From the NCBI GenBank assembly GCA_035574275.1, contig DATLYY010000070.1, positions 1 through 49,477 on the forward strand: a DNA stretch of 49,477 nucleotides. Reading direction: 5' to 3'. The stretch is from Verrucomicrobiia bacterium (GTDB lineage Bacteria; Zixibacteria; MSB-5A5; DSPP01). Every line of letters starts with the position of its first letter. Position 1 is the stretch's first letter. The position numbers and the translations under genes were made by a program. Below the pieces are notes generated by a model, which was not told where the DNA came from, searched no databases, and saw only the letters and a program-made list of their open reading frames with translations. Positions 4,341 through 20,355 of the stretch are shown piece by piece.

Positions 4341-4417
4341 GCGCCCCTCCTTTGGAAGGTTGCAAAATCCGACCGGCGAACCTGCCCGTTCATTTTTTAA
4401 CTTTTCCTTTCCGGTTA

Positions 4418-4446
4418 AAGCTAACCCCCCCCTTTTTTTTTGTCAA
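4418..4446 (-). promoter_or_regulatory. Promoter with A8G8 spacer
   Basis: On the minus strand TTGACA (4446-4441), a 17-base spacer made of eight A, eight G and one T, then TAGCTT (4423-4418). It lies ~75 bases before the GTG at 4340. The homopolymer spacer matches the promoters at 7638-7666, 9946-9974 and 22789-22817. Confidence 0.6.
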
Positions 4447-4452
4447 GCCCTT

Positions 4453-4480
4453 GTAGGGGCGAGGCCTGCCTCGCCCTTAC
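4453..4480. repeat. GTAGGGGC hairpin repeat
   Basis: GTAGGGGCGAGG and CCTCGCCC form a near-perfect stem between the stop of the sorbosone-dehydrogenase gene and the promoter at 4418-4446. It is one of over two dozen copies of a variable-stem hairpin family in the window. Confidence 0.8.
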
Positions 4481-4499
4481 ACCAAAAGTGCAAGGACTA

Positions 4500-5960: not shown

Positions 5961-6007
5961 TGTATGTTTATACGGCGGTCGGTGCATATTAGCTGAAAAG
6001 AAAAAAT

Positions 6008-6032
6008 GTAGGGGCGAGGCATGCCTCGCCCT
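6008..6032. repeat. GTAGGGGC hairpin repeat
   Basis: GTAGGGGCGAGGC and GCCTCGCCC arms around an AT centre, in the gap between two dockerin genes. The arm is the same word as in the 4453 copy. Confidence 0.8.
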
Positions 6033-6055
6033 CACGAAATGTCAGCAATCCCGGT

Positions 6056-7612
6056 CTAACACGGAAACGCCGCCCCCGAAAAAACGGCGTTCAAAAGCAA
6101 AACCGCGTCCGATTGCGTGTTGCTCCCGCTGCAGTTCAAATCGCACCCTTGAAAACCCACCGGCGGCGGGGTCAAGAGAAAAATACAGTTTAGGATATGT
6201 ATCAAATCCGCGGGTGTCAGCGAGCCGTCCGCGTTCATATCCCCCTTCCGGACGGACACGGAAAAATCGATTTGGCAATTGCTCGTTGCCCCGCATAAAT
6301 CCCGTACTTGCACGGTTGCAGAGCGCAAACCCCATTGCGACCCGCTTGGCGTCCATTGCACCAGCCCGGAGGGGGAAACCGTAAGCCCCGCCGGCCCGGA
6401 AACGAGCGAGAATTGCAAATTTCCATTATCCACCGGGTCGATATCCGCACCGGAAAGTTGTAACGAAAACGCCGCCCCCGTATCCCCCTTCACCACATCC
6501 ATAGGACAATTGTTGATAGTCGGCGCGGCGTTCGTTACCACCAGCGCAAAAAGACAGCTCGTGGACTCCGGCCCCGGCCAGCAGCCCCCAAAACTGTCAA
6601 TCGCAAGCGCGTGCACGAATTGCGGCGAAAAACCGACGTCGGAGCAGGAGGTTTGATACGACCACGTTCCATTAGAGCCAACCGTCCCCGGCCCGCTTAA
6701 CTTGGAAAACGACAACAAATCCCCCGCATCCGGGTCCGAGCCGTTGAACTGGTTGGTTGCCATCTCCCCGTGCGAAACCGTAACCGTGCTTTGTGCGGGA
6801 GAGCAAGAAGGCGCATTGTCAATGACGTTAAGCGTAAAACTACATTGGTTAACGGTACCCGATTGACTCACACCGCGAACCGTCACCGGAATAGCTCCAA
6901 GCGGGCACCGTCCGGAAAATGTATAGACCCCGCTGGAGTTGATGGAACCCGGGCCGCTGGTCACCGACCAAGTCACCGATGCATCGGCATCAAAATCATA
7001 ATTGTAAGGTCGGCCATACAAAACGTTGCCTCCCGCGCCTGCACAATTCAAAATACCCCAATCGTCACTCATGAAAATTCCGCCCCAAACGAAGTTGACA
7101 CCAATTGAAGTTCCGCCAATACTTACGAAACCGACCCGGTTGTCAAAAATTACCGCCGAATCGATTGCTGCCTGGCCGGCTCCCTTTGTCGAATCAAATC
7201 GCATCTCCCAGAATACCTTTCGAGTCGAATTGGGCAGCTCTGCTGTGGCCGTATCGCTCGGGTCCCAAAAAGCCGACCAAATCGCTGAATCCGGACTGGC
7301 GTTGTTTAGGAAAGGAGAAAAGGTCAGATTGTTTCCCAAAGTGGAAGTCAGCCGGTTCATCGTCCCGGCAAACGTGCGTGGATAGCCGAGGACGACAAAC
7401 GCTGTGCCGGAAAGAGTGCGTATCTCCACCGGCAAGGTAAAATTTGCCAGTGTATCTTTGTTTGTGATGTCGACCCTGATTAAAAGAGCCCCGGAACCGG
7501 CCAGCCCGGTTGCGGCGGTCTTTGATTCGATAATCACCGAATCCCGCGCATCCGGCTGGGCAAAAACGTTGGAAGCGGTTAATAGCAGAATTGCGGCAAC
7601 AAGCCCTTTCAT
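6056..7612 (-). CDS. Secreted protein: cohesin-like module, Ig-like repeats, dockerin
   Basis: The protein has 518 residues from ATG 7612. The signal peptide ends at VFAQ. Residues ~22-190 are a divergent copy of the cluster's module (DSVIIESKTAATG, NKDTLANFTL, SPDSAIWSAFWDPSD, VFWEMRFDS). Residues ~200-450 hold putative Ig/cadherin-like repeats: VTWSVTSGPGSI, DPDAGDLLSFSKLSGPGTV and APTINNCPMDV, the last like the 'putative Ig' repeats that precede GLTVSPSGLVQWTP. The dockerin (about 457-518) has GDMNADGSLTPADLI and CDLNCSGSNTQSDAV and ends AFPC. There is no strong Shine-Dalgarno; GGAAAGG is 13 bases away. It is probably a cell-surface or matrix protein. Confidence 0.82.
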   Translation of the reverse strand: MKGLVAAILLLTASNVFAQPDARDSVIIESKTAATGLAGSGALLIRVDITNKDTLANFTLPVEIRTLSGTAFVVLGYPRTFAGTMNRLTSTLGNNLTFSPFLNNASPDSAIWSAFWDPSDTATAELPNSTRKVFWEMRFDSTKGAGQAAIDSAVIFDNRVGFVSIGGTSIGVNFVWGGIFMSDDWGILNCAGAGGNVLYGRPYNYDFDADASVTWSVTSGPGSINSSGVYTFSGRCPLGAIPVTVRGVSQSGTVNQCSFTLNVIDNAPSCSPAQSTVTVSHGEMATNQFNGSDPDAGDLLSFSKLSGPGTVGSNGTWSYQTSCSDVGFSPQFVHALAIDSFGGCWPGPESTSCLFALVVTNAAPTINNCPMDVVKGDTGAAFSLQLSGADIDPVDNGNLQFSLVSGPAGLTVSPSGLVQWTPSGSQWGLRSATVQVRDLCGATSNCQIDFSVSVRKGDMNADGSLTPADLIHILNCIFLLTPPPVGFQGCDLNCSGSNTQSDAVLLLNAVFSGAAFPC

Positions 7613-7637
7613 TCTTCTGTAGTTTTCCTTTCCGGTA

Positions 7638-7666
7638 AAAGTTAACTAATTCCCACCCCCCGTCAA
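7638..7666 (-). promoter_or_regulatory. Promoter with G-rich spacer
   Basis: Minus strand TTGACG (7666-7661), a spacer starting GGGGGTGGGA, then TAACTT or AACTTT (16 or 17 bases), ~28 bases before ATG 7612. The sequence after the -10 (TTTTACCGG) resembles that after the 4418 promoter. Confidence 0.5.
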
Positions 7667-7697
7667 CGAAAAAAAACACCCCTTGAGAATTCCCCCG

Positions 7698-7719
7698 GTA
7701 GCCGACACGTTAGTGTCGG
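7698..7719. repeat. GTAGCCGACAC hairpin repeat
   Basis: CCGACACGTTAGTGTCGG is a short hairpin, repeated with a changed loop at 24421-24443. It sits between the stop at 7727 and the promoter at 7638-7666. Confidence 0.7.
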
Positions 7720-7726
7720 GTATTGC

Positions 7727-8497
7727 CTAACACGGAAACCCCTCCCCCCCAAACACGGCGTTCATCAATAGCATCACGTCCGCTAAGGTCCGCTCCCCGT
7801 CGCAGTTCAAATCGCACGCCCCAAACCCCGCCGGCGGCGGCAGGTTCTGCATCACGGCGTATAGAATCAAAACCGCGTCCGCCGGCGTCAAAACCGTACT
7901 CATATCCAAATCCCCCCTGTACGCAAGCGTGAGGATGGCGGGTAAAAAGTTGACCGGCGCATCCACCGGCGCCGTGTTGGTGAAAAGGGAAACAAGACCG
8001 GCAATGGTGCTGTTTTCCAGTATCACCTGCCCCGCAGAGTCGGAACTGTGCCTGAACTTCAATTCCCAAATCGGCTTGCGGGCCGCGTTGGGCGGCTCAA
8101 TCGTCTCCGGAGTGCTCCCGTCAAAACCCGCCGCAATCAGGAACCGGTCGGGGCTGTGGTCGTTGTAAGAAGAGACGCTGATGTTAGCAAAATAACGCAG
8201 CGTATTGGTCAAGGGAGTCACAACGCTCCCAAACGTGAGCGCTCCGCCCGGGCTTCGGTTCAACAAAACATACGCCGAGCCAACCAGGGAAGATTCCCGG
8301 CAGACAAAGGTCAAAAAAGTTATAGAATCCTTGTTGGTGATGGAAAGTTTTATGGTGAAAGCCGGGTTGCCCGTCAGGCCGGGCGCCAGGGTCTTCGATT
8401 CAAGTATGATGGAATCCCACGGGTCGGGCACTTGGGCCAACGCCGTCGCCGCCGTTAGCATCGAAAAAATCAGGAGAACTCCCCACTTTTTCAGCAC
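7727..8497 (-). CDS. Secreted protein: one cohesin-like module plus dockerin
   Basis: The protein has 256 residues from GTG 8497, preceded by GGGAGGG about ten bases upstream; upstream in-frame codons fall inside a dispersed repeat and are not counted. The signal peptide ends TALAQ. One module (about 22-190) carries DSIILESKTLAPG, NKDSITFLTF, SPDRFLIAAGFDGS and IWELKFRHS. The dockerin has GDLDMSTVLTPADAV and CDLNCDGERTLADVM and ends GFPC. The first dockerin repeat has Ala where the other members have Cys (LYAVM versus LNCVF). It lies 53 bases downstream of the 8551-9816 gene, so the two are probably cotranscribed. Confidence 0.82.
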   Translation of the reverse strand: MLKKWGVLLIFSMLTAATALAQVPDPWDSIILESKTLAPGLTGNPAFTIKLSITNKDSITFLTFVCRESSLVGSAYVLLNRSPGGALTFGSVVTPLTNTLRYFANISVSSYNDHSPDRFLIAAGFDGSTPETIEPPNAARKPIWELKFRHSSDSAGQVILENSTIAGLVSLFTNTAPVDAPVNFLPAILTLAYRGDLDMSTVLTPADAVLILYAVMQNLPPPAGFGACDLNCDGERTLADVMLLMNAVFGGEGFPC

Positions 8498-8506
8498 GGA
8501 ATTTTT

Positions 8507-8552
8507 TCCCTCCCCCTCTCTGTGTCGGAGAGGGGATAAAGGGGTGAGGTCT
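8507..8552. repeat. CCCTCTC...GGAGAGGGG repeat
   Basis: A hairpin of the form CCCCTCTCtgtgtcGGAGAGGGG followed by GGGGTGAGGT. It fills the short gap between two dockerin genes and overlaps the last stop codon. The same family is at 13428, 17790, 17937, 18543, 19543, 20484, 26152, 28300, 31500, 32222, 36178 and 36442. Confidence 0.75.
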
Positions 8553-9816
8553 AACAAGGAAACCCCCGCCCCATAAACACCGCCATAAGCTCCAAAATCA
8601 CATCCGCCGGGCTCCGCTTGTTGTCGCAGTTCAAATCGCAGGGATACGCCCCGCCACCCGGCATTCCCATATCAAAAACGCAGTTCAAAAGCTCCACCAC
8701 GTCCGCCCCGCTCAAACTCCCGTCCAAATTGAAATCCCCTTTCGGCCGCACGGTGATGACCGACTTGACGAAATTCACCGGTAGTTCACGAGGTTCCGTG
8801 GTCGTGAATGTGGTAGGCAAATTTTGAACATGGGTCGAATCGATCTCAAAGGTACCGGAATCCAGAAAGACGGAATCAAATGTTATCTCCCAAATCGCCT
8901 TCCGGGTCACATTGGGCGGCTCAATCGTTGTTGGGTCGGCAGGGTCAAAACCACCGGATATCAAAAACTTATCTGGACTTTCTCCCTCGTATGGAAAGGG
9001 ACAGACATCTATCGTTTTATTCAACGTATTGGTCAAAAACCTCATAAAATTCCGGGGCGGGCACCAGGGCCCGGAAAGCTGGGCATACGCCCCATTGGTA
9101 AGCGTGCTTTCTTTTAAAGCTAGTGTAAGAAAAGTCAACGAATCCTTGTTGGTAATGTAAACCTTCATCGTAAAAGCCGGGTCGCCTACACCGGGCAAGA
9201 CAACTTTCGATTCCAGAATCACCGAATCCCGCGGGTCGGCCTGCGGGCGAACCGTAATGATGCCTTTCACGAAATTCACCGGCAAATCCTGCGGCCCTGT
9301 ATTGGTGAAGGTGGGTTTAAGCCCCATAACTGTGGCGGAATCCAGCTCAAACGTGCCCGCATTCGGTCGGACGGAGTCAAATTTTATCTCCCAGATGGGC
9401 GTTCGGACGTTAAAGGGCGGCGCAATGGTGGAGGGATCAGCCGGGTCAAAACCGGCAGCCAAGAGAAGAGTGTCCGGGCTGCTGTTGTCGTACCATAAAG
9501 TGAAGGCGGGTGGGTTCCGAAAGTAGTTGCTCAAGGGTGATAGTATGCCAAAGAATGTACGGGGATACCCCAAGACGCCGTAGGCCCCGCCGGACGTTGA
9601 AACCTCCTTTAACGGCAAAGTCAAAAAAGTGAGCGAATCCTGGCTGGTGAGGTACATTTTCACGTACAGATATGCCGCCGTGTCTGAAGTGCTCCCCGGA
9701 TAAAACCCGGGCGCCACCGTTTTTGACTCGAAGATAATCGAATCCCCCGGACGGGCCTGCCCAAAAGCCCCAGCCGAAGCTACCAGCAAAAGCGCAAGCG
9801 CCAATAATCTTTTCAT
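8551..9816 (-). CDS. Secreted protein: two cohesin-like modules plus dockerin
   Basis: The protein has 421 residues from ATG 9816, with GGGAGGG seven bases upstream. The signal peptide ends GAFGQ. Its two modules align closely with those of the 3060-4340 protein: SDTAAYLYVKMYLTS, STSGGAYGVLGYPR, GFDPADPSTIAPP, WEIKFDSV, GTFELDSATVMGL. The dockerin has GDFNLDGSLSGADVV and CDLNCDNKRSPADVI and ends GFPC. A poly-G promoter lies at 9946-9974. It is the first gene of the minus-strand cluster, and the 3060 and 8551 genes look like products of duplication. Confidence 0.85.
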   Translation of the reverse strand: MKRLLALALLLVASAGAFGQARPGDSIIFESKTVAPGFYPGSTSDTAAYLYVKMYLTSQDSLTFLTLPLKEVSTSGGAYGVLGYPRTFFGILSPLSNYFRNPPAFTLWYDNSSPDTLLLAAGFDPADPSTIAPPFNVRTPIWEIKFDSVRPNAGTFELDSATVMGLKPTFTNTGPQDLPVNFVKGIITVRPQADPRDSVILESKVVLPGVGDPAFTMKVYITNKDSLTFLTLALKESTLTNGAYAQLSGPWCPPRNFMRFLTNTLNKTIDVCPFPYEGESPDKFLISGGFDPADPTTIEPPNVTRKAIWEITFDSVFLDSGTFEIDSTHVQNLPTTFTTTEPRELPVNFVKSVITVRPKGDFNLDGSLSGADVVELLNCVFDMGMPGGGAYPCDLNCDNKRSPADVILELMAVFMGRGFPC

Positions 9817-9945
9817 AATACCCTCCCTTTGCATTGAAGCTGGTTGGAAGAAAAACAACCCCAAAAATGAATAAAGCCCCCTCCCAAGCTTGGAAACACT
9901 CGGCAGGCGGCCTCTGTTTTCATCGCACCACTATCCTATCTGTTT

Positions 9946-10720: not shown

Positions 10721-10750
10721 CCCCCCGCAATTTGGCGGGGGGTTTTTTTT
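10721..10750. terminator. Strong intrinsic terminator
   Basis: CCCCCCGC (10721-10728), loop AATTTG, GCGGGGGG (10735-10742), then eight T. Oriented for plus-strand transcripts. It also abuts the stop codon of the minus-strand M15 gene and is followed on that strand by a T-rich stretch, so it may act in both directions. Confidence 0.85.
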
Positions 10751-11153
10751 ATTCCCTTCTCTTCCCTACTTGAATGTGAATATGCGGGGAAGCGGTCCCC
10801 CGGTCATTGACCAGAATCACCCACCCCGGCAGCTCCTCCCACCAGGTTGCAAAGTACTCCCGCAGCGCCTGTACTTCCTCCGCCGACAAATCCCGCGAGC
10901 GGATATCGACCGCCCGGCAGGGGAAATCCAAATGCGGGCTGGGACGGACTCTTCCAACCCGCGCAAAAAATTCAGGATAAAGTTCCCTCTGCTCCACCTC
11001 CGTCCGGCCGACGGAAGTAACCACCAGCTCCCGCCCGAATTTTTTCTGAAAAAAGAAATCTAGTTCGACCGCAACCGCCCGCACCCGCGGGTCAATCGCT
11101 TCCAAATCATAAAACTGCCGCCGCAGGTTCTCCTGCTTGAATTGCATATCCAT
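10749..11153 (-). CDS. M15-like D,D-carboxypeptidase / endolysin
   Basis: The protein has 134 residues from ATG 11153. The Shine-Dalgarno AAGGAGG is eight bases upstream and is part of the dispersed repeat at 11158-11195. Motifs: VTSVGRT, then SPHLDFPCRAVD (H74, D83) and PHIHIQ (H124, H126), the zinc-ligand pattern of M15/VanY-type peptidases and phage endolysins, with a two-residue longer H-D spacing than usual. It has no signal peptide. It would cut peptide cross-links in peptidoglycan. Last gene of the minus-strand capsid module, the place where phages and gene transfer agents carry lysis or cell-wall entry enzymes. A longer frame to 11288 runs through repeats and is rejected. Confidence 0.8.
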   Translation of the reverse strand: MDMQFKQENLRRQFYDLEAIDPRVRAVAVELDFFFQKKFGRELVVTSVGRTEVEQRELYPEFFARVGRVRPSPHLDFPCRAVDIRSRDLSAEEVQALREYFATWWEELPGWVILVNDRGTASPHIHIQVGKRRE

Positions 11154-11157
11154 TCTT

Positions 11158-11227
11158 GTCCCCTCCTTACGAAGGAGGGGATTAAGGGGAGGTTGTCTTT
11201 GTAGGGGCGGTTCGTGAACCGCCCCCT
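11158..11227. repeat. CCCTCCTTACGAAGGAGGGG repeat and GTAGGGGC hairpin
   Basis: CCCTCC and GGAGGG arms around TTACGAA, then ATTAAGGGGAGGTT, followed by a GTAGGGGCGGTTC/GAACCGCCCC hairpin (11203-11227). On the minus strand the first element provides the ribosome-binding site of the M15 gene. Confidence 0.8.
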
Positions 11228-11232
11228 GCAAA

Positions 11233-12264
11233 TCACCACGTAAACTGCCAGCTTGCCTGATTGGGAACAACCACCGTCCGCTTGGCAATCGGCGCGGAGT
11301 TCAGATAAACCGTGAACTCATATTTTGTTGTCGAGGGCGTCAAACTAAGATTCGGATACAAATCCAAAAACCAGTAACCGGCAGAATTGGTCGTCGCCGC
11401 TCTGAAATACGGCGAAACGACGATTAACCCCGCCTTGAGCGGCGCTGTTTTTATCTCCGCCGTGACGGTCACCCCCGCCAAGGAATCGGCGGAAAGCCCA
11501 AACACCCACCCATAAACCCGGCACAAAGAGGGGCTCGCCGGCGCCCCGGGGTCAAAAAGCGTCCCGGCGTAATTTTTGACCGTAGCGCCCGAAACGACCA
11601 GCGTCTCCGGCGCGGCAAACAAATATCCCGGTTTGAACAGCCGGACAAAATAAAATCCGGCGTTCAGATTGAACCGGATGACCCCGTTCGCGTCCGTATT
11701 CCCCATCCCCTGCGTCGCCAGTTGCGTCAAGGAATCGACCACTTGCACCTGCACCCCCGCAATCGGGAGAGCCCCCTGCTTCACGCTCACCGTCACCGGA
11801 TTCGAACCTGCGCCAAGAGCCGACACTTGCGCAATCGTATCCGCCGAGACAATATTCACTTCGGGAAAGGCGGAGGTAACCGTGTAGGTGAACCATCCCC
11901 CTTCGTCAAAGTTATGGGAAATTCTCCCCCCGTTTTTCCAAACCAAAACCCGCACCGCATAAGCGCCCGTCGAGCCGTCCGACTTGGAGGCCCGAAAGGC
12001 CCGCCTAAAATTCCCCGTCCAGATTTTATCGGTGGCAAAAGCGACAAACGTGGATTCAAAAAGCGTCCCCTGATAATACCGCCAGTAGCCGATGGAATCC
12101 CCGTCCTGCTCCTTCAGCCCCAGCGAATCATGAAAATTGCCGGACAAATACAGCGTGTCCCACTTCGCCCCGCTTGAATTCCGAAACTCCCCCCACAAAT
12201 CCGCCCGGGCGATTTCGATAGACAAAGCCGGCAACGCAACGGCTAATAGAAATGTTTTGATCAC
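11233..12264 (-). CDS. Secreted protein with carboxypeptidase-regulatory-like domains
   Basis: The protein has 343 residues from GTG 12264, preceded by AGGAG six bases upstream; an upstream in-frame ATG at 12324 would read through a repeat. The signal peptide is FLLAVALPALSIEIARA. An N-terminal domain (DLWGEFRNSSG to FTYTVTS, about 23-150) is followed by two transthyretin/CarboxypepD_reg-like beta-sandwiches: PIAGVQVQVVD with NTDANGVIRFNL and AGFYFVRLFKPGY, then ADSLAGVTVTAE with TTNSAGYWFLDL. The chain ends in Trp. It is part of the minus-strand module; it could be a virion-associated protein or a host surface protein next to it. Confidence 0.65.
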   Translation of the reverse strand: MIKTFLLAVALPALSIEIARADLWGEFRNSSGAKWDTLYLSGNFHDSLGLKEQDGDSIGYWRYYQGTLFESTFVAFATDKIWTGNFRRAFRASKSDGSTGAYAVRVLVWKNGGRISHNFDEGGWFTYTVTSAFPEVNIVSADTIAQVSALGAGSNPVTVSVKQGALPIAGVQVQVVDSLTQLATQGMGNTDANGVIRFNLNAGFYFVRLFKPGYLFAAPETLVVSGATVKNYAGTLFDPGAPASPSLCRVYGWVFGLSADSLAGVTVTAEIKTAPLKAGLIVVSPYFRAATTNSAGYWFLDLYPNLSLTPSTTKYEFTVYLNSAPIAKRTVVVPNQASWQFTW

Positions 12265-12308
12265 AGTTCTCCTTTTAGTTAGGTGCGAATCCGATGATTT
12301 CGTTTTTT

Positions 12309-12360
12309 TTGTCCCCCTTACCAAGGGGGACGAGGCCCGAAGGGCCGGAGGGGGTGTCTA
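12309..12360. repeat. GTCCCCC...GGGGGACGAGGCC repeat
   Basis: GTCCCCCTTACCAAGGGGGAC hairpin followed by GAGGCCCGAAGGGCCGGAGG and GGGGTGT. Related copies are at 17683, 17857, 19600, 20427, 27943, 31441, 32144, 32971, 33169 and 35988. Confidence 0.8.
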
Positions 12361-12387
12361 AGTCCGGACGATTCTCCGCTTTCACTT

Positions 12388-12978
12388 TTACGGTTTCTTG
12401 ATCAGCCGCTTCCGCCTCGGCGAACCGCCCCCGGATGCCGGCGTGTAAAAAATCTTGGCCCGCACGTGGTCAATCTCAATCTGGTTCTGCGCTATATCCT
12501 CCCGGCTGTATTTCAAAGACACGCGGAAATTGGAATTATTGGTCTCCGTAACCGTCCACACCCTCCCCCACAAATCCGCCGCCCCGCCAAACGCGTGATA
12601 AAACTCCCCCTCCCCTTCCGTATAAACCTCGGTTTTGGCCGCTGTCCAACTCGTCCCCCCGTTCCACGAAAGCCGTATCTGCAAATCCCCGGTGGACCCG
12701 CCCCCCTGCGGCGGGCTTTCCAAAAGCCGCCCCTCCGCTTCAATCTGAAGGCCGTTGATACTTTGGGCATCGGCGGGGACGTTGAACGAAAAATCCCAGC
12801 ACCCCATCGTGTCATTGACCGCCCCCTCGATCGCCCGCGCATCGTTCGAGCTTACCGCGTTCCCCGGATTGGCAAACTGCCCCGCCGTGGAACCCGGGCT
12901 TTTGTATCCCGTATCATCGGCAAAGGCCGCCGCGGCGCCGAACGCCAAACCGGCAATCACCCGCCATTTATTTTTCAT
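12388..12978 (-). CDS. Secreted beta-sandwich protein, virion- or surface-associated
   Basis: The protein has 196 residues from ATG 12978 with GAGAGGA about nine bases upstream. The signal peptide is VIAGLAFGAAAAFA. The remaining ~160 residues follow a recurrent jelly-roll-like pattern seen in metagenomic structural proteins: FSFNVPADAQSINGLQIEAEG, IRLSWNGGTSWT, DLWGRVWTVTE, NSNFRVSLKYS and IEIDHVRAKIFYT. The tail is basic (SPRRKRLIKKP). It is divergently arranged with the DUF559 gene, sharing a 70-base gap with AT-rich -10-like boxes for both strands. Function unknown. Confidence 0.65.
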   Translation of the reverse strand: MKNKWRVIAGLAFGAAAAFADDTGYKSPGSTAGQFANPGNAVSSNDARAIEGAVNDTMGCWDFSFNVPADAQSINGLQIEAEGRLLESPPQGGGSTGDLQIRLSWNGGTSWTAAKTEVYTEGEGEFYHAFGGAADLWGRVWTVTETNNSNFRVSLKYSREDIAQNQIEIDHVRAKIFYTPASGGGSPRRKRLIKKP

Positions 12979-13048
12979 CGTTTCTATCCTCTCTTTTTCG
13001 CTTTATATTTTGTCCCTTATTTTTCCGGAGGGGATTGGAAGGGACTGA

Positions 13049-13420
13049 ATGCCCGAAAAGAAGAACTATCTCGCTTACTCCAAAACCGGTGTCAACCGGG
13101 CGCGTCAACTGCGCAGGCAAATGACCGCCGTCGAAAAACTGCTGTGGGGGCGTCTGCGTTCGAATCGAATAGGAGCGCATTTTCGTCGTCAGGTTCCCTT
13201 TGGTCCTTACGTTGTTGATTTTCTCTGCGTAAAAGCGAAACTGTTCGTCGAACTGGATGGCGGTCAGCATTTTCAGAAAAAGGAAAAAACCGAAGACAGG
13301 AAACGCGACGCATTCTTTGGGAAATACGGCTTTACTGTTTTGCGATTTTCCGGTCATGAATTTCTCACGAACCTGCAGGGAGTATTGGACAAAATCTCTG
13401 ATCATATCAAAAAGCAATGA
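13049..13420 (+). CDS. DUF559 endonuclease-like protein
   Basis: The protein has 123 residues from ATG 13049 with GGAAGGG about six bases upstream. It matches the DUF559 family: RQLRRQMTAVEKLLWGRLR, FRRQVPFGPYVVDFLC, KLFVELDGGQH, DRKRDAFFGKYGFTVLRF. These proteins share the restriction-endonuclease/Vsr fold, and the D and E/D-x-G-Q residues visible here are the expected metal site. The biological role of the family is unsettled. The gene lies on the strand opposite to the capsid genes that flank it and is bordered downstream by a dispersed repeat, suggesting later insertion. Confidence 0.88.
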   Translation: MPEKKNYLAYSKTGVNRARQLRRQMTAVEKLLWGRLRSNRIGAHFRRQVPFGPYVVDFLCVKAKLFVELDGGQHFQKKEKTEDRKRDAFFGKYGFTVLRFSGHEFLTNLQGVLDKISDHIKKQ

Positions 13421-13427
13421 TTACTTG

Positions 13428-13466
13428 TCCCCTCTCCTTTTAGGAGAGGGTTAGGGAGAGGTTGCC
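13428..13466. repeat. CCCCTCTCC...GGAGAGGG repeat
   Basis: CCCCTCTCCttttaGGAGAGGG followed by TTAGGGAGAGGTT, filling the gap between the DUF559 gene and the 122-residue gene. Confidence 0.8.
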
Positions 13467-13472
13467 TTTCCG

Positions 13473-13841
13473 TCACCCCATTTCGATTATGAGCAAATCC
13501 ACCACCGCATTCTCCGCACCGGCAACCTTCGCCAGCCGGAAAACCTCCTCCCCCTCGCTCCCGACCACAACCGCAAAAACCGCCGACTTTTGCAAAACCG
13601 CCACCTTCGGATTTTTCAATCGCTGCGGCAGTTGGTTCCCCCGAAAATCCACCAGGTCTTTGTAAAACAAAACCTGCTCCATCCCTCCCAGAACCGCCGT
13701 CTCAAAAATTATCCGCTTCGCGCTCGGCGTGATTTCCGTCCGGAGCAATAGCAGTTCCGCTGCCCCCAAAGTGCCGTAAACGGAAACCCCCGGCACCGCC
13801 CAAATGCGTTTCGATTTGAGATAGTTTAAGGTTTGCGTCAT
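13473..13841 (-). CDS. Small phage-type structural protein (hypothetical)
   Basis: The protein has 122 residues beginning MTQTLNYLKSKRIW. The ATG at 13841 overlaps the stop of the upstream gene as ATGA, so translation is coupled; this decides the start against a longer frame from 13946. No family is recognised. The size, the position after a connector-like gene and the compact beta-rich sequence (SAVFAVVVGSEGEEVF) are compatible with a minor head or tail-completion protein. Confidence 0.65.
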   Translation of the reverse strand: MTQTLNYLKSKRIWAVPGVSVYGTLGAAELLLLRTEITPSAKRIIFETAVLGGMEQVLFYKDLVDFRGNQLPQRLKNPKVAVLQKSAVFAVVVGSEGEEVFRLAKVAGAENAVVDLLIIEMG

Positions 13842-14659
13842 ACCTTCCCCGGAATCGTCATCGGTTTCAACCCTCCCGCCTTTTTCGCAAAAGGCGCCAA
13901 AAATTCCTGCGCCCGCCTCCGGTAAAAGTTGGACATAATCGCCCACGACCGCGAAAGCTGGTGCGATGGAACGTTTGCCTGCATCGACTCGAGCGATTTG
14001 ATGTGCGCCAGAATGGAAACCGCCAGATAAGTCGCCCCCGCCGCAAGCCCCGCATCGGACGAATCCAGATACGCCGCGTCGATTCGGGAGACAACCTGCG
14101 CCTCCGCCTCTGCTACCGCATTCTCGATTATCTCTTCCCCCAAAAACGCAAAATCCAGCTTGAAATCGGCATAAACCGTCTGCCCGTCCTCGATGACCCC
14201 GGTTGCCAAACGTGAGAGCTCCCCCCTGCCGTAGTCGATTTTGTAATCCGTACTCCGCGTGTAAATTCTAAACGGCACATACCAAACGGTGACGGTGGCG
14301 TCGGAAGCGAGCGCCCCGCCCGCCAGTCGGCGCACCTTTCCCGCCGGATAATCCACGGCAAAATCCACCTGCTCGATATAGACCGTCCCCAGCGACGAAT
14401 CGGACGCCGCGACCACCGACTCCGGTATCAAATCGGTCGACTGCAGTTGCACCCCCGCCGGCGTAAGCAGAACCGTTTCCTGCTTGGGAGTTTGCTCCTC
14501 CTTCCCTTTGACTTTTTCCGAGCTTGCCAAAACCGGCGCTCCCGGCAGTTTCACCGGGGAAGTTCCGCTCAATTTCAGAGCGAAATTCTCCACCGCCTGT
14601 CCCGCGGCCGAATGTTCAATCAAATGTTTCCGCACCAGTTGCGCATTGGTAAAAGGCAT
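13838..14659 (-). CDS. Phage connector/neck-like structural protein
   Basis: The protein has 273 residues from ATG 14659, one base after the stop of the propeller gene, with GGAG just upstream. The N-terminus is helical (NAQLVRKHLIEHS). The middle contains two similar beta segments, DFAVDYPAGKVRRLAGG and TDYKIDYGRGELSRLATG, each followed by a TV-x-V/A-(W/D)Y-type strand, a pattern common in phage neck and baseplate proteins. The C-terminal third is helical (ENAVAEAEAQVVSRID). No specific family is assigned. It is cotranscribed and coupled with the genes on both sides. Confidence 0.65.
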   Translation of the reverse strand: MPFTNAQLVRKHLIEHSAAGQAVENFALKLSGTSPVKLPGAPVLASSEKVKGKEEQTPKQETVLLTPAGVQLQSTDLIPESVVAASDSSLGTVYIEQVDFAVDYPAGKVRRLAGGALASDATVTVWYVPFRIYTRSTDYKIDYGRGELSRLATGVIEDGQTVYADFKLDFAFLGEEIIENAVAEAEAQVVSRIDAAYLDSSDAGLAAGATYLAVSILAHIKSLESMQANVPSHQLSRSWAIMSNFYRRRAQEFLAPFAKKAGGLKPMTIPGKV

Positions 14660-14660
14660 A

Positions 14661-16085
14661 TCACTCCGTCACGTTTGGATAAATGGTTTCCGGAAGGGCC
14701 GAAAGCTGCGTTCCGACCGGGCCCGTGGAAAAAGCCGTGGCGACTTCAATCTTCAGCCAGTATTTGACCGTGCCGTTGACGCTCGCGCGTTTCCACTCCG
14801 CCGGTATTTGCGATTTGTCACTCCACAGATAGACCCCCGCCCCGCTGTCGGTAAAGTTGTAATTGCCGGAATCGGGAACGAACGCCGTCCACTCCGACCC
14901 GTTCCAGTAGGCATAGGTGACGACTCCGCCCACACCGGCAACCGAAAAGAGAACGCGGAAGAAATGAAACGCCTCCTCCATTCCCAAATACAAGGCATCC
15001 CCAACATCTTTGAGCATCGCCGCGGAAGTGGAATGCAAAACATCCCCCGCCGTTGCGGAAGCCCCCTCCGCCGTCTTGTCCTGGAATTTCGTGGTTGCCG
15101 AAGCGTCGTAAACAAAAACTTTCGCAAACGCCGCCTCTCCCGCAAAAAGCGGCACGGCGCTTCCAAACCCGCTCTCCCCTTTTTGCGCCAAAACAAGCTG
15201 GTTCTGCAAACTGCCGAAGCTTTTCAGATATAGTACCGTCGGTTTCCCGTTGGGAAAAACGACCAACGGAGCTGCACCGGTTGTATCGATTTGCAAAGCC
15301 CCGCCCCAAACCGTCCCGTCATTTTCCCGGTAGAAAAGCCCGGAGGAACTGGCATAAGCAACCCCCAATTTCCCGTCCGCCGAACTCTTGACGGCGAAGT
15401 TGGCATCAAACCCCGTCCCGCTCGCCAGAATCTCCTCCGCCCCCCAGAGCGACCCGCTGATCGGAAAATATCTTGCGGCCAACTTCGCTCCCCCCTCCGT
15501 GTAAACCGCATACACCCGGTCATTGAAAATCTCCACTTGGCCGTAAACCGCCGAAGCAACTCCGGACGTGAGCGTGGTTCCAACATCTGTCCCCCCGCTT
15601 CCCCACGTCGCCCCGTCGTTGATGGAGCTTTTTGCCGAGAGATAATATTTGCCTTCGGCGGAAACAAAACGCGTCCAGACCGCCCAGAGCCGGTCCGTGC
15701 GGTCCTTGACGATGACCGGGTAGTAATTCGAATCCACAGTCAAAACCTGCCGCACCGTGCCGACGCTCCAACTTCCGTTGGCAAACGACAGCTTCACCAT
15801 CAGTAAAGCGAGCGTGGTCGCTTGCGTATAGATGACGTAGATGTTCCCGTCCTTGTCCATCGTGGCCGAAAAAGGCAAATCCGCCGAATCCGTGGCGACG
15901 TTTTGTGCCGCCGACCAATTGACGAACGGCGGATCGGCGAAAACCAGAACAATCGTCCCCGCCGTTTTCTGGTAAAGCGCCGCCCCTCTTCCCGCATACA
16001 CGCCCGAAGGCGCTCTGAAAATCTTCCGTTGCGTCGAAAGCCCCGTCGGATTAAGCGCGGATGATGTGTCCAATAGTTTTTGCAT
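14661..16085 (-). CDS. Sialidase-like beta-propeller protein in capsid module
   Basis: The protein has 474 residues from ATG 16085 with AAGGATTGAAGG upstream. There is no signal peptide, unlike most beta-rich proteins here. Repeated Asp-box-like strands (MDKDGNIYVIYTQ, KDRTDRLWAVWTRF, NDGATWGSGG, FNDRVYAVYTEGG, SSADGKLGVAYAS) indicate a sialidase/exo-alpha type propeller over residues ~25-300. A C-terminal domain (about 300-474) has YAYWNGSEWTAF and VKYWLKIEV, typical of appended beta-sandwiches in phage fibres. It is likely a cytoplasmically made virion protein such as a fibre or spike, given the ATGA-coupled genes below it. A glycosidase activity is not shown. Confidence 0.7.
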   Translation of the reverse strand: MQKLLDTSSALNPTGLSTQRKIFRAPSGVYAGRGAALYQKTAGTIVLVFADPPFVNWSAAQNVATDSADLPFSATMDKDGNIYVIYTQATTLALLMVKLSFANGSWSVGTVRQVLTVDSNYYPVIVKDRTDRLWAVWTRFVSAEGKYYLSAKSSINDGATWGSGGTDVGTTLTSGVASAVYGQVEIFNDRVYAVYTEGGAKLAARYFPISGSLWGAEEILASGTGFDANFAVKSSADGKLGVAYASSSGLFYRENDGTVWGGALQIDTTGAAPLVVFPNGKPTVLYLKSFGSLQNQLVLAQKGESGFGSAVPLFAGEAAFAKVFVYDASATTKFQDKTAEGASATAGDVLHSTSAAMLKDVGDALYLGMEEAFHFFRVLFSVAGVGGVVTYAYWNGSEWTAFVPDSGNYNFTDSGAGVYLWSDKSQIPAEWKRASVNGTVKYWLKIEVATAFSTGPVGTQLSALPETIYPNVTE

Positions 16086-16525
16086 CCTTCAATCCTTTTT
16101 TTGTAGTGGCGAATCCCTGGCCGGGCAGGCTTCAGATTCGCCCCTGCGAACCGAAGGTTCGCTCCAACCGTTTCTCTTGTAGGGGCGGTTCGTGAACCGC
16201 CCCCTGTGAAATTGCCTCAGAATTTCTCCCTCTTCTTGTCATTCTGAGCGCAGCGAAGAATCTGGGCGGTGCGGGGCGGACGAATCACTAATCCCCAATC
16301 CCTGATCCCTGTCTTTACAGGGGTGGGGACATCCTTTCTTCTTTCATTTTCCGGTGGCGCCGATTGGTTTTCGTAATCGGCGCTCCCGGCGATTGAACTT
16401 TTGCAGGGGGACGGCGCGCCGTCCCCCTGCCGGGTATGTCTTCCTGCTCACCCGGCCGGCAGACCAGCCGGCGGGGGCGGCCCCTCCGCTGGCGCGGAAT
16501 CGGGCGGGGCCGGGAAAAGACATCC
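16086..16525. repeat. Repeat-filled gap downstream of capsid gene
   Basis: No gene is seen in these 440 bases. They contain a GTAGTGGCGAATC/GATTCGCC hairpin with an enlarged loop (16093-16136), a GTAGGGGCGGTTC hairpin (16172-16203), a CATTCTGAGCG element (16239-16265) with heptads AATCACT, AATCCCC, AATCCCT, GATCCCT (16283-16310), a hairpin CGCCGATT/AATCGGCG (16356-16383), and the 28-base perfect palindrome at 16403-16430. Confidence 0.8.
16403..16430. repeat. 28-base perfect palindrome
   Basis: GCAGGGGGACGGCG followed by its exact reverse complement. No T-run follows on either strand, so it is not a standard terminator. It lies ~100 bases beyond the stop of the capsid gene. Confidence 0.9.
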
Positions 16526-17623
16526 CTACCACGAAACGTCCAAAACCAGACTCGCTTCCTTGACGACCTTGGCATACGCCACCGCTTCCGAAACGACCGC
16601 CTCCTCCAGCCGCTGCTCGATGACCTTGTCAAACTCCACCATCAACGGTTGCGACACCGCCTCCTCGATGGCAAACCGGTTGTCCAGCCCGATGAGCAAA
16701 TCCGCCGGCGCATCATCCGACCGGATGAGCTTCGTGCCCAAAGGCGTCACCAGCTCCCCGGTCTTCTGGAAGCGGAACCCCACCATCGGGTCTTTGAATT
16801 CGGAAAGCGTCAGAACCGTTTTCAATTTGTCCTTCGCCACCACCAAGGTGTTCATCTCGAACGGATAAAACTCGTTCCAAAAGCTCACCAAATCGGTGTA
16901 AGCCAGCGTGCCGGTGACCGCCGTGTTGATGACCGTCGCCGGGTTTGAATTCCCGTCCCCGTTGATGATGGTGTTGACGAGCAAACCGATTTTATCCGCC
17001 GAAAGCCGGAACCCCACGTACCACAAGAGCACTTTGAACTGCGCCATCGACCGGTAGCGCAGGGCGCGATACGAAATCGCCAGCGCGAGTCCATACTCCG
17101 GCACGGTGATGGTATGCTGCTGCTCCGTGACCAGCATCTGCGGCACGGAAGCCCCCTCCCCGACCGGCTTGAGTGAAAGCTTGGTCTGCGCCGGGGATAC
17201 GTTGATGTAAAAAGGGGTGTAGCGGGACGCAAACACCGGCGTGGATGTCGCGACGAGCGTTTCGAGGCCGGGGCGCATCCGCTGGCCTGCCAGAATTTCC
17301 CGCCGGATGAACTCCGGCATCAAAACCGGCGCCGCGGCAAAAAACTCCTCCACCGTGGAAGCGTTCTTCCCTTCGGTTTTCAACCCCCGCACGACCAACT
17401 GTCGCTCAAAGGCGTCCAATGCCGAACCCAAAGGCGACGGGTCATACGGTTCGGTTTCAAGCAATTCCGAAAGCGTCATCCCCGAATTCTGTGCCTCCAG
17501 ATAGGTTTCGCGCGAAATCTCCAGTTGCGCCGCCCGCGTCAAATCCGCCGCCCCTTTCCTCGGTTTCTCCGCCAGCGCGAGCGACATCCAGCTCGGCTCT
17601 TCCAAAAGTTTTTCCAGTTCCAT
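16526..17623 (-). CDS. Phage major capsid protein, HK97-fold type
   Basis: The protein has 365 residues from ATG 17623 with GAAAGGA upstream. The order of features fits HK97-type coat proteins: a helical N-terminal arm (about 1-120), then FASRYTPFYINVS and LSLKPVGEGASVPQM, a TITVPEYGLALAISY strand, the long helix region with LVNTIINGDGNSNPATVIN, VTGTLAYTDLVSFWNEF, KDPMVGFRFQKTGELVTPLGTKLI, SDDAPADLLIGLDNRFAIEE and a C-terminal strand KEASLVLDVSW. The decoration gene lies ~355 bases upstream in transcription order and the protease gene further upstream, as in phage head modules. Known role: forms the icosahedral shell. A self-contained encapsulin is less likely because protease and decoration genes are present. 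Confidence 0.85.
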   Translation of the reverse strand: MELEKLLEEPSWMSLALAEKPRKGAADLTRAAQLEISRETYLEAQNSGMTLSELLETEPYDPSPLGSALDAFERQLVVRGLKTEGKNASTVEEFFAAAPVLMPEFIRREILAGQRMRPGLETLVATSTPVFASRYTPFYINVSPAQTKLSLKPVGEGASVPQMLVTEQQHTITVPEYGLALAISYRALRYRSMAQFKVLLWYVGFRLSADKIGLLVNTIINGDGNSNPATVINTAVTGTLAYTDLVSFWNEFYPFEMNTLVVAKDKLKTVLTLSEFKDPMVGFRFQKTGELVTPLGTKLIRSDDAPADLLIGLDNRFAIEEAVSQPLMVEFDKVIEQRLEEAVVSEAVAYAKVVKEASLVLDVSW

Positions 17624-17977
17624 TCTTTTCCTTTCTTATTTTTTCTCCCTTGTCAAAAAGACCCCCTTTTTCCTGTCCCCCTTACGAAGGGGGACAAACC
17701 TAAAGGGCTTGTCCCTTTGGGTCAGGGGGTTTTCTCTTTCAATCGTCAATCACTCAATCTTCTTCCCATCCGGCAGACAAATCTGAAACTTGTCCCCTCT
17801 CCTTCAGGAGAGGGTTAGGGAGAGGTTTCCCTGCAATCTTCAAACCCCGTCTTTCTGTCCCCCTGTATTTAAGGGGGACGAGGCCGACTTGTCCCGAGCA
17901 CGGTCGAGGGAAGGCCGGAGGGGGTGTTTCTCTCTTGTCCCCTCTCCTTTTAGGGGAGGGTTAGGGAGGGGTTGCTC
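17624..17977. repeat. Repeat-filled gap between decoration and capsid genes
   Basis: 354 bases without a gene. They hold a GTCCCCCTTACGAAGGGGGAC hairpin (17675-17730), two CCCCTCTCC/GGAGAGGG elements (17789-17826, 17937-17973) and a GTCCCCC...GGGGGACGAGGCC element (17857-17930) whose loop is interrupted by CTTGTCCCGAGCACGGTCGA. Confidence 0.8.
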
Positions 17978-18400
17978 CTAATTCAAAACCACCGTGCAGT
18001 CCGTCGTGCCGTTGACGGCGATGACCGTCCCCCGGGCAACGTTCCCTCCCGCCGGGTCATTCCCCGCCAAGGCCGGCGCCTGCTTGACGGTCCCGGAAGC
18101 CCCGCCCACGACCCGGTTCCCGACCGCCGGCGCCGGCGTCGCGAGGTTGAGATTGACGATTCCCCCAATCTGCACCGTCGCCACTCTTTTCCCGTTGTCC
18201 GCGTCCGTGAGCGATAAATCAACCAATTTTCCCAAAAGCACCGACCCGTCCGTGGCCGGCCCCACCGTGTATCCCGCGGTGATGGTGACCGCCTTGCCGA
18301 TGTCCGCATCTTTGAGGTCATCCACCCCGGCGGTCTGTTTGATTAAGAACGTGCCGAACACCGCCCCCAGTCCCTCCAGCGCCAAATCCCGTACTCCCAT
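17978..18400 (-). CDS. Capsid decoration-like protein
   Basis: The protein has 140 residues from ATG 18400 with GGAG four bases upstream. The chain is small, Gly/Ala/Val-rich and beta-dominated: DIGKAVTITAGYTVGPA, NGKRVATVQIGGIVNLNL, AVGNRVVGGASGTVKQA, GTVIAVNGTTDCTVVLN. This is the profile of DUF2190/head-decoration proteins encoded next to phage major capsid genes. The neighbourhood (protease before, capsid after) supports the call. Confidence 0.7.
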   Translation of the reverse strand: MGVRDLALEGLGAVFGTFLIKQTAGVDDLKDADIGKAVTITAGYTVGPATDGSVLLGKLVDLSLTDADNGKRVATVQIGGIVNLNLATPAPAVGNRVVGGASGTVKQAPALAGNDPAGGNVARGTVIAVNGTTDCTVVLN

Positions 18401-18438
18401 TTATTCTCCTTTCGTTTCGTTTCAATTTTTTGCATTTC

Positions 18439-18580
18439 CCGTAGGGGCGGTTCGTGAACCGCCCCCTCCTTCTTTCGTTTGCTGCTTCAACGTAGGGGCG
18501 AATCTCTGGATTCGCCCGGGTGAACCGAAAGGTTCACCCTCTTGTCCCCTCTCCTTTAGGAGAGGGTTGGGGAGAGGTTG
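18439..18580. repeat. Three consecutive hairpin repeats
   Basis: GTAGGGGCGGTTC/GAACCGCCCC (18439-18465); GTAGGGGCGAATC/GATTCGCCC followed by GGTGAACC/GGTTCACC (18491-18540); CCCCTCTCC/GGAGAGGG (18544-18577). The last two recur as a nearly identical ~85-base block at 19495-19583. Confidence 0.8.
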
Positions 18581-18873
18581 CTTTTCCCTGGCCCCTTGCT
18601 CAAAATTCGCTTGGGTAGCCCCGGAGCTCCCGCTCCGGGGACTTTAAACCGCACGTCCGCGCTTGGCTCCGCAGCCAAAGCCGCGTCTAACTTCTGTTTC
18701 AACTTTTTCTTGAGCTCAACGAGCTTTTCCGCCGAAAGATTTTCCACCTCGCCGGAAACCTCCGCCCCCTGCCCCGTGGTCAAAACAACCAGCGTGGCAT
18801 AAAGCCCCTTCACTTCTCGGATCAGCTCCGCCTTCAAAACGGAATGCTCCCTTTCGATTTGCTTTTCCGTCAT
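18556..18873 (-). CDS. Small helical protein, possible scaffold, with repeat-encoded C-terminus
   Basis: The protein has 105 residues. The ATG at 18873 overlaps the stop of the preceding gene (ATGA), so translation is coupled. The sequence is helical and charged (EREHSVLKAELIREVKGLYA, SAEKLVELKKKLKQKLDAAL), suitable for a scaffolding or assembly protein; no family is recognised. The last residues (NLSPTLS and the stop) are encoded by the CCCCTCTCC/GGAGAGGG dispersed repeat, so the original C-terminus may have been replaced. Confidence 0.6.
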   Translation of the reverse strand: MTEKQIEREHSVLKAELIREVKGLYATLVVLTTGQGAEVSGEVENLSAEKLVELKKKLKQKLDAALAAEPSADVRFKVPGAGAPGLPKRILSKGPGKSNLSPTLS

Positions 18874-19190
18874 CGTCTCTCCGAATTTTGCTCCAGCTTC
18901 GCCTCGATTTTGCCCAAGCGTTCCAGCATCTCGTCCCGCATCCGGTAAAAATCCTCCTTGGTCATGAACCGCTCCGCCAGTTGCACCTCGACTGCCGCTA
19001 CTTTCTTTTCCATTGAAACGACGGCCGCCCCGTCCGCCTTCCCCGCCAGCTCCAGCTTCAACCCGGAAACCGTGGTGTAATAGGCCGCCAAAATCCCGAA
19101 CGCCGTCATCCCGAACGAGAAGAGGAACTTCAAAAGCCCCTCCGCCGTCACCAAACTCAAAGGCCCGTTTGTTTTTCCTTTTTGCTTCAT
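18870..19190 (-). CDS. Membrane-anchored coiled-coil protein in capsid module
   Basis: The protein has 106 residues from ATG 19190 with AGGGAG close upstream. There is one predicted membrane helix (about residues 20-42, LLKFLFSFGMTAFGILAAYY) and then a long amphipathic helix (VSMEKKVAAVEVQLAERF to GKIEAKLEQ). This topology occurs in holin-like and phage accessory membrane proteins, but no specific family is assigned. It is coupled to the next gene by ATGA and preceded by a micro-ORF ending 10 bases upstream. Confidence 0.6.
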   Translation of the reverse strand: MKQKGKTNGPLSLVTAEGLLKFLFSFGMTAFGILAAYYTTVSGLKLELAGKADGAAVVSMEKKVAAVEVQLAERFMTKEDFYRMRDEMLERLGKIEAKLEQNSERR

Positions 19191-19199
19191 ACGCTCCCT

Positions 19200-19256
19200 T
19201 CACTTAAAGCCCCCTCCCGCCATTCCCTCCGATTTGATTGCGTTTTTGCCGTCCAT
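19200..19256 (-). CDS. Putative 18-residue leader peptide
   Basis: The frame reads MDGKNAIKSEGMAGGGFK and a stop, with AGAGGA four bases before ATG 19256. It ends 10 bases before the start of the membrane coiled-coil gene. The core KNAIKSEGMAGGG is repeated in the frame at 19375-19476, and a degenerate form is at 20368-20403. It may be a real short peptide, a translational leader or a decayed duplication. Confidence 0.35.
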   Translation of the reverse strand: MDGKNAIKSEGMAGGGFK

Positions 19257-19656
19257 CTTTTCCTCTGAATATTGCGTAGCGGAGGTCTTCAGACCTCCAT
19301 CCTTCCTTTTGTCATTCTGAGCAGAGCGAAGAATCTGGGCTGTGCCGGGCGGCCTAATCACTATTCACCAATCTCTAATCCCTGTCTCTATTGGGGGGTG
19401 ATTTTTCAGACCATCCCTCCACTATTGTCCCCCCTCCCGCCATTCCCTCCGATTTGATTGCGTTTTTGTTTTCCATATGAATTTGCCTTGAGCGTCGGGG
19501 CGAATCTTCAGATTCGCCCGGGTGAACCGAAAGGTTCACCCTCTTGTCCCCTCTCCTTTAGGAGAGGGTCAGAGAGAGGTTGCTTTCCCCGTTCCTTTTG
19601 TCCCCCTTGCCAAGGGGGACGAGGCCGTAAGGCCGGAGGGGGTGTCTTTTCCCCAT
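19257..19656. repeat. Repeat-rich gap between protease and membrane protein genes
   Basis: It contains a CATTCTGAGC element (19311-19336) with heptads AATCACT, ATTCACC, AATCTCT, AATCCCT (19356-19383), the second micro-ORF, a GTCGGGGCGAATC/GATTCGCCC hairpin with GGTGAACC/GGTTCACC (19495-19540), a CCCCTCTCC/GGAGAGGG element (19545-19580) and a GTCCCCC...GGGGGACGAGGCC element (19600-19647). Confidence 0.8.
19375..19476 (-). CDS. Putative 33-residue peptide sharing the KNAIKSEGMAGGG core
   Basis: It starts MENKNAIKSEGMAGGG and continues with an unrelated tail that runs into the heptad repeat. Only a weak Shine-Dalgarno precedes ATG 19476. About 40 bases are nearly identical to 19210-19250. It is probably a duplicated start of the same micro-gene. 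Confidence 0.25.
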   Translation of the reverse strand: MENKNAIKSEGMAGGGTIVEGWSEKSPPNRDRD

Positions 19657-20355
19657 CTACCGATAAATCCGAGGCAACCGTCTTCGACGACTCTGAACGG
19701 TTCTTCGTTCGACAACTTTCGTGGTAAAAACCTCCCCTTTTTGCGCCCCCATTGGAGCCGCAATCCCCGTCCCCGCCACCGCCCCGCGAAAAACGAGCGA
19801 CGCCTCCAAAAACTTGGAAACGTTCCGGTACCAGAAAAAAGCGGGCTTTAGTGAACCGTTCGGAACGGCATACCGCCGGAACGGAACATGCTCGCAGCTT
19901 CGGATGTTCCCCCCGCAGACCGAGCACTCCGGCGTCTCAAAGAGAAACGCCGCCGAAACTTCCTTATAGATGCCGCCGTCGATGTTTTTTGCCAAATTCT
20001 CCGCCCCGGCTGCCTCCGCCAGCCAGTAAAAATGCGCCGCGAGCCACGCCGCCCCGTTTCTTTCCACGATTTCCGCCGAAAAACTCCTTCCAATCGGCAA
20101 TTTTTGGTGATTATGCCCGACCAGAACGGGGGCGTCGATGACCAGCTCCGCCATTTTCAAAAGCTCTTTCCGGTCGAACCGGCCGCCGAACGAATTGATT
20201 TGGTCGGAAACCAAAAACATCTTCCGGATGAATACCTCCTTCCCTTCCAACGGTTTGTTGGGCTTTACTTTTTGGTTGATGAGCTCAACCAGTTCCGCTT
20301 CCGCGTTGCTTTCCGGCGCCAAAAGCGCCGTTTCGTTCTTCATTTCTGTTATCAT
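19657..20355 (-). CDS. Phage prohead (capsid maturation) protease-like protein
   Basis: The protein has 232 residues from ATG 20355 with AGAGAGGGA upstream; ATG 20343 is an alternative. The pattern fits the herpesvirus-fold prohead proteases: INSFGGRFDRKEL, LVGHNH (H81, H83), then GGIYKEVSAAFLFE, where S134 takes the place of the catalytic Ser, and a Cys/His cluster CSVCGGNIRSCEH (C144, C147, C154, H156) seen in several phage maturation proteases. Known role: cleaves scaffold and capsid arm during head maturation. It is the first recognisable gene of the minus-strand module; no portal or terminase gene lies upstream of it. The basic tail (RRRRLPRIYR) abuts a repeat. Confidence 0.78.
   Translation of the reverse strand: MITEMKNETALLAPESNAEAELVELINQKVKPNKPLEGKEVFIRKMFLVSDQINSFGGRFDRKELLKMAELVIDAPVLVGHNHQKLPIGRSFSAEIVERNGAAWLAAHFYWLAEAAGAENLAKNIDGGIYKEVSAAFLFETPECSVCGGNIRSCEHVPFRRYAVPNGSLKPAFFWYRNVSKFLEASLVFRGAVAGTGIAAPMGAQKGEVFTTKVVERRTVQSRRRRLPRIYR

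Follow-up and report, generated by a model that had tools for sequence, protein, structure and literature searches.

Gene transfer agents (GTAs) consist of caudoviricete-derived proteins forming caudovirion-like particles that encapsidate mostly random host DNA; their own genes are not fully packageable, the head being small, and the packaged DNA is delivered to other cells (PMC9662315). Their inheritance is mostly vertical, with co-diversification with the hosts, and known gene sets come from few groups, mainly Alphaproteobacteria and Brachyspira (PMC9662315). RcGTA (Rhodogtaviriformidae) has a 49 nm tail and a proven transfer of ~4 kb DNA (PMC9662315). Here, we describe a module of phage-type head genes at positions 10749-20355 of contig C70 (DATLYY010000070.1) from a member of the Zixibacteria, whose assembly (2.5 Mb) is 99.9% complete. 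The entire contig, 49,477 bp, was analysed and is referred to as the window; the module lies on its minus strand, with the gene order running from 20355 down to 10749. We consider, with a probability of roughly two in three (0.68), that the module supplies half of a GTA-like particle system, phage-derived and inherited vertically, whose genes lie at two loci. The likeness would be one of function: packaging and delivery are predicted, and membership of the GTAs is not claimed. A literature search, which left subscription journals mostly uncovered, found no paper joining Zixibacteria with gene transfer agents or capsids, and none on the topic under prophage.

The capsid gene was found in 111 of the 132 genomes of the phylum, nearly always once, and the terminase gene in 115. 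Among good genomes (completeness >=90%, contamination <=5%), 73 of 78 carry the capsid gene, and a few of them lack the genes. Capsids are 56-93% identical among genomes despite a local GC content of 38-68%. Gene content was compared in 41 capsid loci and then in 80 further loci from public genomes, the two sets of genomes partly overlapping. The common order in the relatives is portal, terminase, a gap, protease, c7, scaffold-like, decoration, capsid, propeller, adaptor, c6, c8, a variable exported protein, c5 and the holin-like c12; the membrane/coiled-coil gene, the scaffold-like gene and the two coupled genes of the window are conserved among them. More than 100 loci share this gene set and its order, so that the module is not due to chance. 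In many loci the cluster has host genes for neighbours, lipA among them, and no integrase, replication or regulatory gene was found in the conserved cluster, which thus does not correspond to a conventional temperate prophage. Most relatives have a single cluster; in others it is split. The capsid and terminase genes, in the 102 genomes with both, are within 10 kb of each other in 57, farther apart on one contig in 9 and on separate contigs in 36, some of which may reflect broken assemblies, and the head and portal-terminase loci are 28-91 kb apart in three genomes (G008, G128, G114). Two further genomes have a gene in two distant pieces with overlapping residues, the result of inversion or misassembly: the capsid gene at G026:C1:1725325 and 2322220, and the terminase gene at G078:C1:2126977 and 2541965.

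An earlier, sequence-only reading of the window had reported no terminase, portal, tail, integrase or repressor gene beside the module. The window indeed gave no terminase, portal or tail gene, and ten open reading frames flanking the module or inserted in it had no Pfam match to a phage family or to an integrase, replication or regulatory gene, not all of the remaining frames having been scanned. The source genome, on the other hand, has one portal and one large terminase gene, both intact, on a second contig (C55:12022-14760), so that the separate locus which that reading had thought worth seeking exists and the absence reported by it applies to the window and not to the genome. The portal is single-copy in 10 of 10 genomes. 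In the sister genome G008 (Candidatus Zixiibacteriota PMV_8.32), contig JAKEHY010000025.1 is collinear with the window, as judged by protein matches, as far as the right end of the window; portal and terminase come directly after the collinear stretch, 28.5 kb from the capsid gene. The portal and terminase of the source are 85% and 68% identical, respectively, to those of this sister. C70 and C55 were searched for nucleotide overlap without result; the case for their adjacency is the collinearity with the sister, which makes C70 followed by C55 reversed the likely order, and the join itself we infer. The lack of terminase and portal in the window is therefore an edge effect, since the window stops just before their likely position. 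The sequence-only reading had held that a terminase and portal set just outside a conventional prophage border would speak against domestication; a set was found, at the distance given above for the sister, but no prophage border, and the C55 locus still has n14 as a host neighbour, a gene found next to the unsplit clusters in other families too. The finding thus agrees with that description in letter and not in sense.

The capsid and terminase trees agree with the GTDB families at the smallest number of changes possible, so that inheritance is vertical. The maximum-likelihood capsid tree (56 genomes; some deep forks poorly supported, bootstrap not settled) required 18 label changes for its 19 groups, and the terminase tree 14 for 15 groups, each the lowest number that could occur. 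The ratio of nonsynonymous to synonymous substitution (dN/dS; NG86, pairs of relatives), proposed for the capsid by the sequence-only reading, was 0.013-0.077 for the capsid, 0.05-0.09 for the portal, 0.09-0.12 for the terminase, 0.09-0.19 for the propeller and 0.02-0.21 for the adaptor; exported proteins had higher values, reaching 0.41. Between source and sister dS exceeds 1, so that their ratios, among them 0.039 for the capsid, are rough; several other pairs have dS of 0.2-0.6. Every gene tested is under purifying selection. Domestication probably predates the diversification of the phylum, and the particle is probably short-tailed. A domesticated or transfer-agent-like locus, as opposed to a live prophage, had been proposed from the window alone, and is now well supported by the single copy, phylum-wide presence, congruent trees, purifying selection and the gene content of the conserved cluster.

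The products of the window genes were assigned by PHROGs and Pfam profile searches, AlphaFold models and comparison with relatives (Table 1), and the minus-strand genes named in the sequence-only reading are all present. An alignment of relatives revealed conserved His (PVLVGH) and Ser (KEVS) positions and a Cys/His cluster in the protease-like protein; its role as a protease is suggested by the position of the gene, the conserved residues and the fusion to a scaffold-like domain in the RBG-1 genome. The c7 protein is possibly spanin- or holin-like. The c2b gene starts at 18873 and overlaps c7 by four bases (18870-18873); it is divergent in the window and was assigned by position and a short motif. 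A similar four-base start/stop overlap (13838-13841) couples c6 to ADAP, and the start of c5 is probably the GTG at 12264. A profile search of the source genome with PF05065 gave no match, because the capsid belongs to another family. Relatives of the M15 peptidase occur in the sister genome and in families f4 and f14. A gene found in relatives and not in the window, c12, shows a weak holin likeness (9 of 27 members match phrog_6918, best E 0.0012). The gene at 12388-12978 and the slot between c8 and c5 in relatives encode largely unrelated signal-peptide-like proteins, of which 34 of 54, versus 5 of 106 controls, end in an RRR-type basic motif, a class picked after viewing the sequences. Within the capsid gene row, 13049-13420 holds a DUF559 endonuclease-like gene (PF04480, E 1.1e-33) that is read from the plus strand, opposite to the module. 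A tandem array of related secreted proteins with dockerin-like ends (3060-9864, minus strand) adjoins the module, and its kin are found near many clusters. The intergenic gaps hold repeats also present elsewhere in the window, as had been noted before; the long residence that had been read from them is compatible with our results, although the repeats are a weak argument beside the comparative evidence.

Table 1. Genes of the head module in the window and related features at other loci (aa, amino acids; loci, the 41 capsid loci first compared).
Feature	Position	Strand	Evidence or remark
Prohead-protease-like protein, 232 aa	19657..20355	-	phrog_16951 (phage family, function not stated), E 2e-16
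c7: N-terminal membrane helix and coiled coil, 106 aa	18870..19190	-	same position in 31/41 loci
c2b: scaffold-like helical protein, 105 aa	18556..18873	-	c2b-type sequence fused to protease in RBG-1
Decoration protein, 140 aa	17978..18400	-	phrog_4588 (virion structural/head) 1.8e-7, phrog_122 0.015; in 39/41 loci
Major capsid protein, 365 aa	16526..17623	-	phrog_3922 major head protein, E 1.7e-59; Pfam Phage_capsid_4 (PF25209) above cut-off
PROP: beta-propeller and C-terminal beta domain, 474 aa	14661..16085	-	AlphaFold model
ADAP: two Ig-like (immunoglobulin-like) repeats and three-helix end, 273 aa	13838..14659	-	tail/Ig-like, 1.2e-5; phrog_807, phrog_18315; model
c6, 122 aa	13473..13841	-	in 37/41 loci; connector-like by position
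Variable exported protein, signal-peptide-like start, C-terminal PRRKRLIKKP	12388..12978	-	comparison of relatives
c5: exported protein, carboxypeptidase-regulatory-like domain, conserved C-terminal part	11233..12264	-	PF13620 8.7e-5, below cut-off; in 37/41 loci
M15-type peptidase, putative lysin, 134 aa, His/Asp/His motifs	10749..11153	-	PF08291 0.08; phrog_2649 endolysin 0.0084; weak by score
Terminase (position in source genome)	C55:12022-13413	-	phrog_2 7e-35; Pfam Terminase_6N above cut-off
Portal (position in source genome)	C55:13468-14760	-	phrog_3753 3e-20
RBG-1 loci	L198:5291-6619 (-), L074:11205-12700		portal and capsid kept, apparent frameshift in propeller gene
Protease-ligase fusions	L075:6455-8656 (+), L072:6184-8433 (+), L203:9532-13218 (+)		

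The PROP model (predicted local distance difference test, pLDDT, 94.8) has a sialidase/PLL-lectin-type beta-propeller fold, and a portal-tail chain of phage LME-1 ranked 11 in the fold search; PROP is thus a putative spike or receptor-binding protein. ADAP is homologous from end to end with a protein of virus contig G132 (hhalign E 2e-36). Because the G132 protein adjoins the terminase, a neck role is supported, and we regard ADAP as a putative neck/adaptor protein; the neck, tail and baseplate matches from its own fold search were weak and not decisive. Sequence searches of the PDB with profiles of the capsid, portal and c6 gave nothing meaningful. The closest solved terminases are phage TerL chains (5tge, 5m1f, 4zni), Terminase_6N is a T4-like family, and nearly all of the 45 terminases compared retain Walker B and the nuclease aspartates.

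Scanning viral contigs with a single protein gave no relatives; with an alignment, seven were found, one of them probably a host contig. The latter, L179 (IMGVR_UViG_3300027896_005586), is filed as viral; it has the same cluster, a capsid that is 55% identical and a dockerin-like host gene. G132 (IMG/VR contig 3300031920_000406, 55 kb) has homologues of the protease (with ligase), decoration protein, capsid, adaptor, terminase and portal, but the similarity is distant, the gene order is another, and it also encodes a RecE-like exonuclease, further phage genes and a tail-spike-like protein. Its propeller was considered as a homologue of PROP and rejected, as profile comparison shows no homology. 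The module probably came from a phage that lacked a long tail and was a distant relative of G132.

In families f13 and f14, the protease runs on into an ATP-dependent DNA ligase (PF01068, E to 3.6e-30, motif KYDGxR) and the fusion ends in a LigD 3'-phosphoesterase-like domain (PF13298 below cut-off; PDB 3p4h, E 3e-9). The same protease-ligase fusion is found in G132 (PF01068, 3.5e-18). Most of the other families whose protease is long have an alignable ligase region without the catalytic lysine, and the window protease is without the ligase-like extension that most relatives have. The fusion may be ancestral and largely degenerated since. Tentatively, and with more doubt than confidence, we suggest that a gene-transfer particle lacking a long tail was fixed in the ancestor of the phylum and inherited since, with a maturation protease bearing a LigD-type DNA ligase and a phosphoesterase-like domain; the ligase, whose catalytic motif is still kept in some families, could be set free into the head and help seal the delivered DNA in the recipient.

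The proteins known in GTAs as caudoviricete-derived are represented here by the capsid, portal, terminase and decoration protein; the endogenized genes are spread over loci, and the capsid and terminase trees show vertical inheritance with host co-diversification. In all this the system resembles RcGTA, whose endogenized head and packaging genes are likewise caudoviricete-derived, not all at one locus, mostly vertical in descent and co-diversifying with the hosts (PMC9662315), and also the Bartonella BaGTA and Brachyspira BhGTA, which stem from separate domestications of phage modules and are also inherited vertically (PMC9662315). It differs in that tail and transfer are proven for RcGTA and particles have been observed for BaGTA and BhGTA, whereas the Zixibacteria system is known from genes alone; no long-tail genes were recognised in it, and its descent is phylum-wide, the host groups of BaGTA and BhGTA being narrower. 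Phage and PDB searches, which did not compare the GTA proteins directly, showed no close kinship to BaGTA or BhGTA. Encapsulin nanocompartments are phage-capsid-type shells kept as cellular genes, and in this general respect the capsid is similar. They stand without portal or terminase, however, while the Zixibacteria have kept portal, terminase, protease and scaffold, and Pfam and PHROGs place the capsid in phage head families; the capsid is therefore not taken for an encapsulin.

Under the GTA-like reading, the window locus would make the head, with protease, scaffold, decoration protein, capsid, neck/adaptor and a sugar-binding spike, plus the M15 lysin, and the C55 locus would make the portal and terminase motor. 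The capsid would assemble on the portal and scaffold and be matured by the protease, and the terminase would fill it with host DNA; headful filling is predicted because the terminase is kin to Terminase_6N and to phage TerL chains. Particles would then leave by lysis, and the propeller spike would bind the recipient. The gene set suggests a short-tailed or tail-less, DNA-filled particle freed by lysis. The packaging of host DNA, release and transfer are steps that we infer from gene content. Several observations weigh against this reading. No tail machinery was recognised, which leaves the entry of DNA into a recipient without explanation: tape-measure, tube and sheath genes were not found in the conserved cluster, and PhageMin_Tail (tape measure), the tail family searched genome-wide, matched in 0 of 10 genomes versus 7 of 14 control genomes. 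The lysis assignments (M15 peptidase, holin-like c12) are weak by score. Two cluster-encoded proteins seem to be Sec-exported, a feature unaccounted for if phage assembly takes place in the cytoplasm. The Walker A motif is GNRWGKG in the source and sister terminases (L159:11022-12392(-), L160), as against GNRWGKS in other families; as these terminases also stand on a long stem branch of the tree, packaging could be altered in the source lineage. Finally, RBG-1 (G009), a single-contig genome of the same order as the source, has an intact capsid and portal and no terminase match. In the order to which both belong, the packaging step may be on its way to being lost or changed. The propeller gene of RBG-1 seems to be frameshifted once, which may be due to a sequencing error.

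The altered Walker A, the absence of a terminase in RBG-1, the exported proteins and the lack of recognised tail genes would all suit a capsid domesticated for a use other than transfer, such as a storage compartment, protein cargo, a decoy or a surface structure, with portal and terminase as relics or needed for assembly only. We consider this unlikely, since most genomes keep portal and terminase under purifying selection with conserved catalytic motifs, even far from the capsid genes. The split locus in the source genome, the few genomes without the genes, and RBG-1, with its missing terminase and frameshifted propeller, could also point to a decaying prophage remnant. This is highly improbable: the frames are open, dN/dS is far below 1 throughout and retention is phylum-wide, the selection test refuting decay for most lineages.

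A temperate or integrated phage of the ordinary kind, common across the phylum and moving between hosts, would account for head and packaging genes that are all phage-derived and for distant free relatives in virus collections. It is strongly disfavoured, and in our view very unlikely, given the minimum-change fit of the trees, one copy per genome, the absence of integrase and replication genes from the conserved cluster, the conserved host neighbours and the split loci. The spike-like propeller and the putative lysin are features that a tailocin or head-bearing bacteriocin might also encode, but keeping capsid, portal and terminase without recognisable tape-measure, tube or sheath genes in the cluster is the reverse of a tailocin, which makes this explanation highly improbable.

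Virus collections can hold probable host contigs such as L179, which would inflate virus counts for such phyla. If the GTA-like reading is true, why such particles persist becomes testable by comparison, through losses, split loci and altered terminases, and a single domestication inherited through a whole uncultured phylum would rank among the broadest known.

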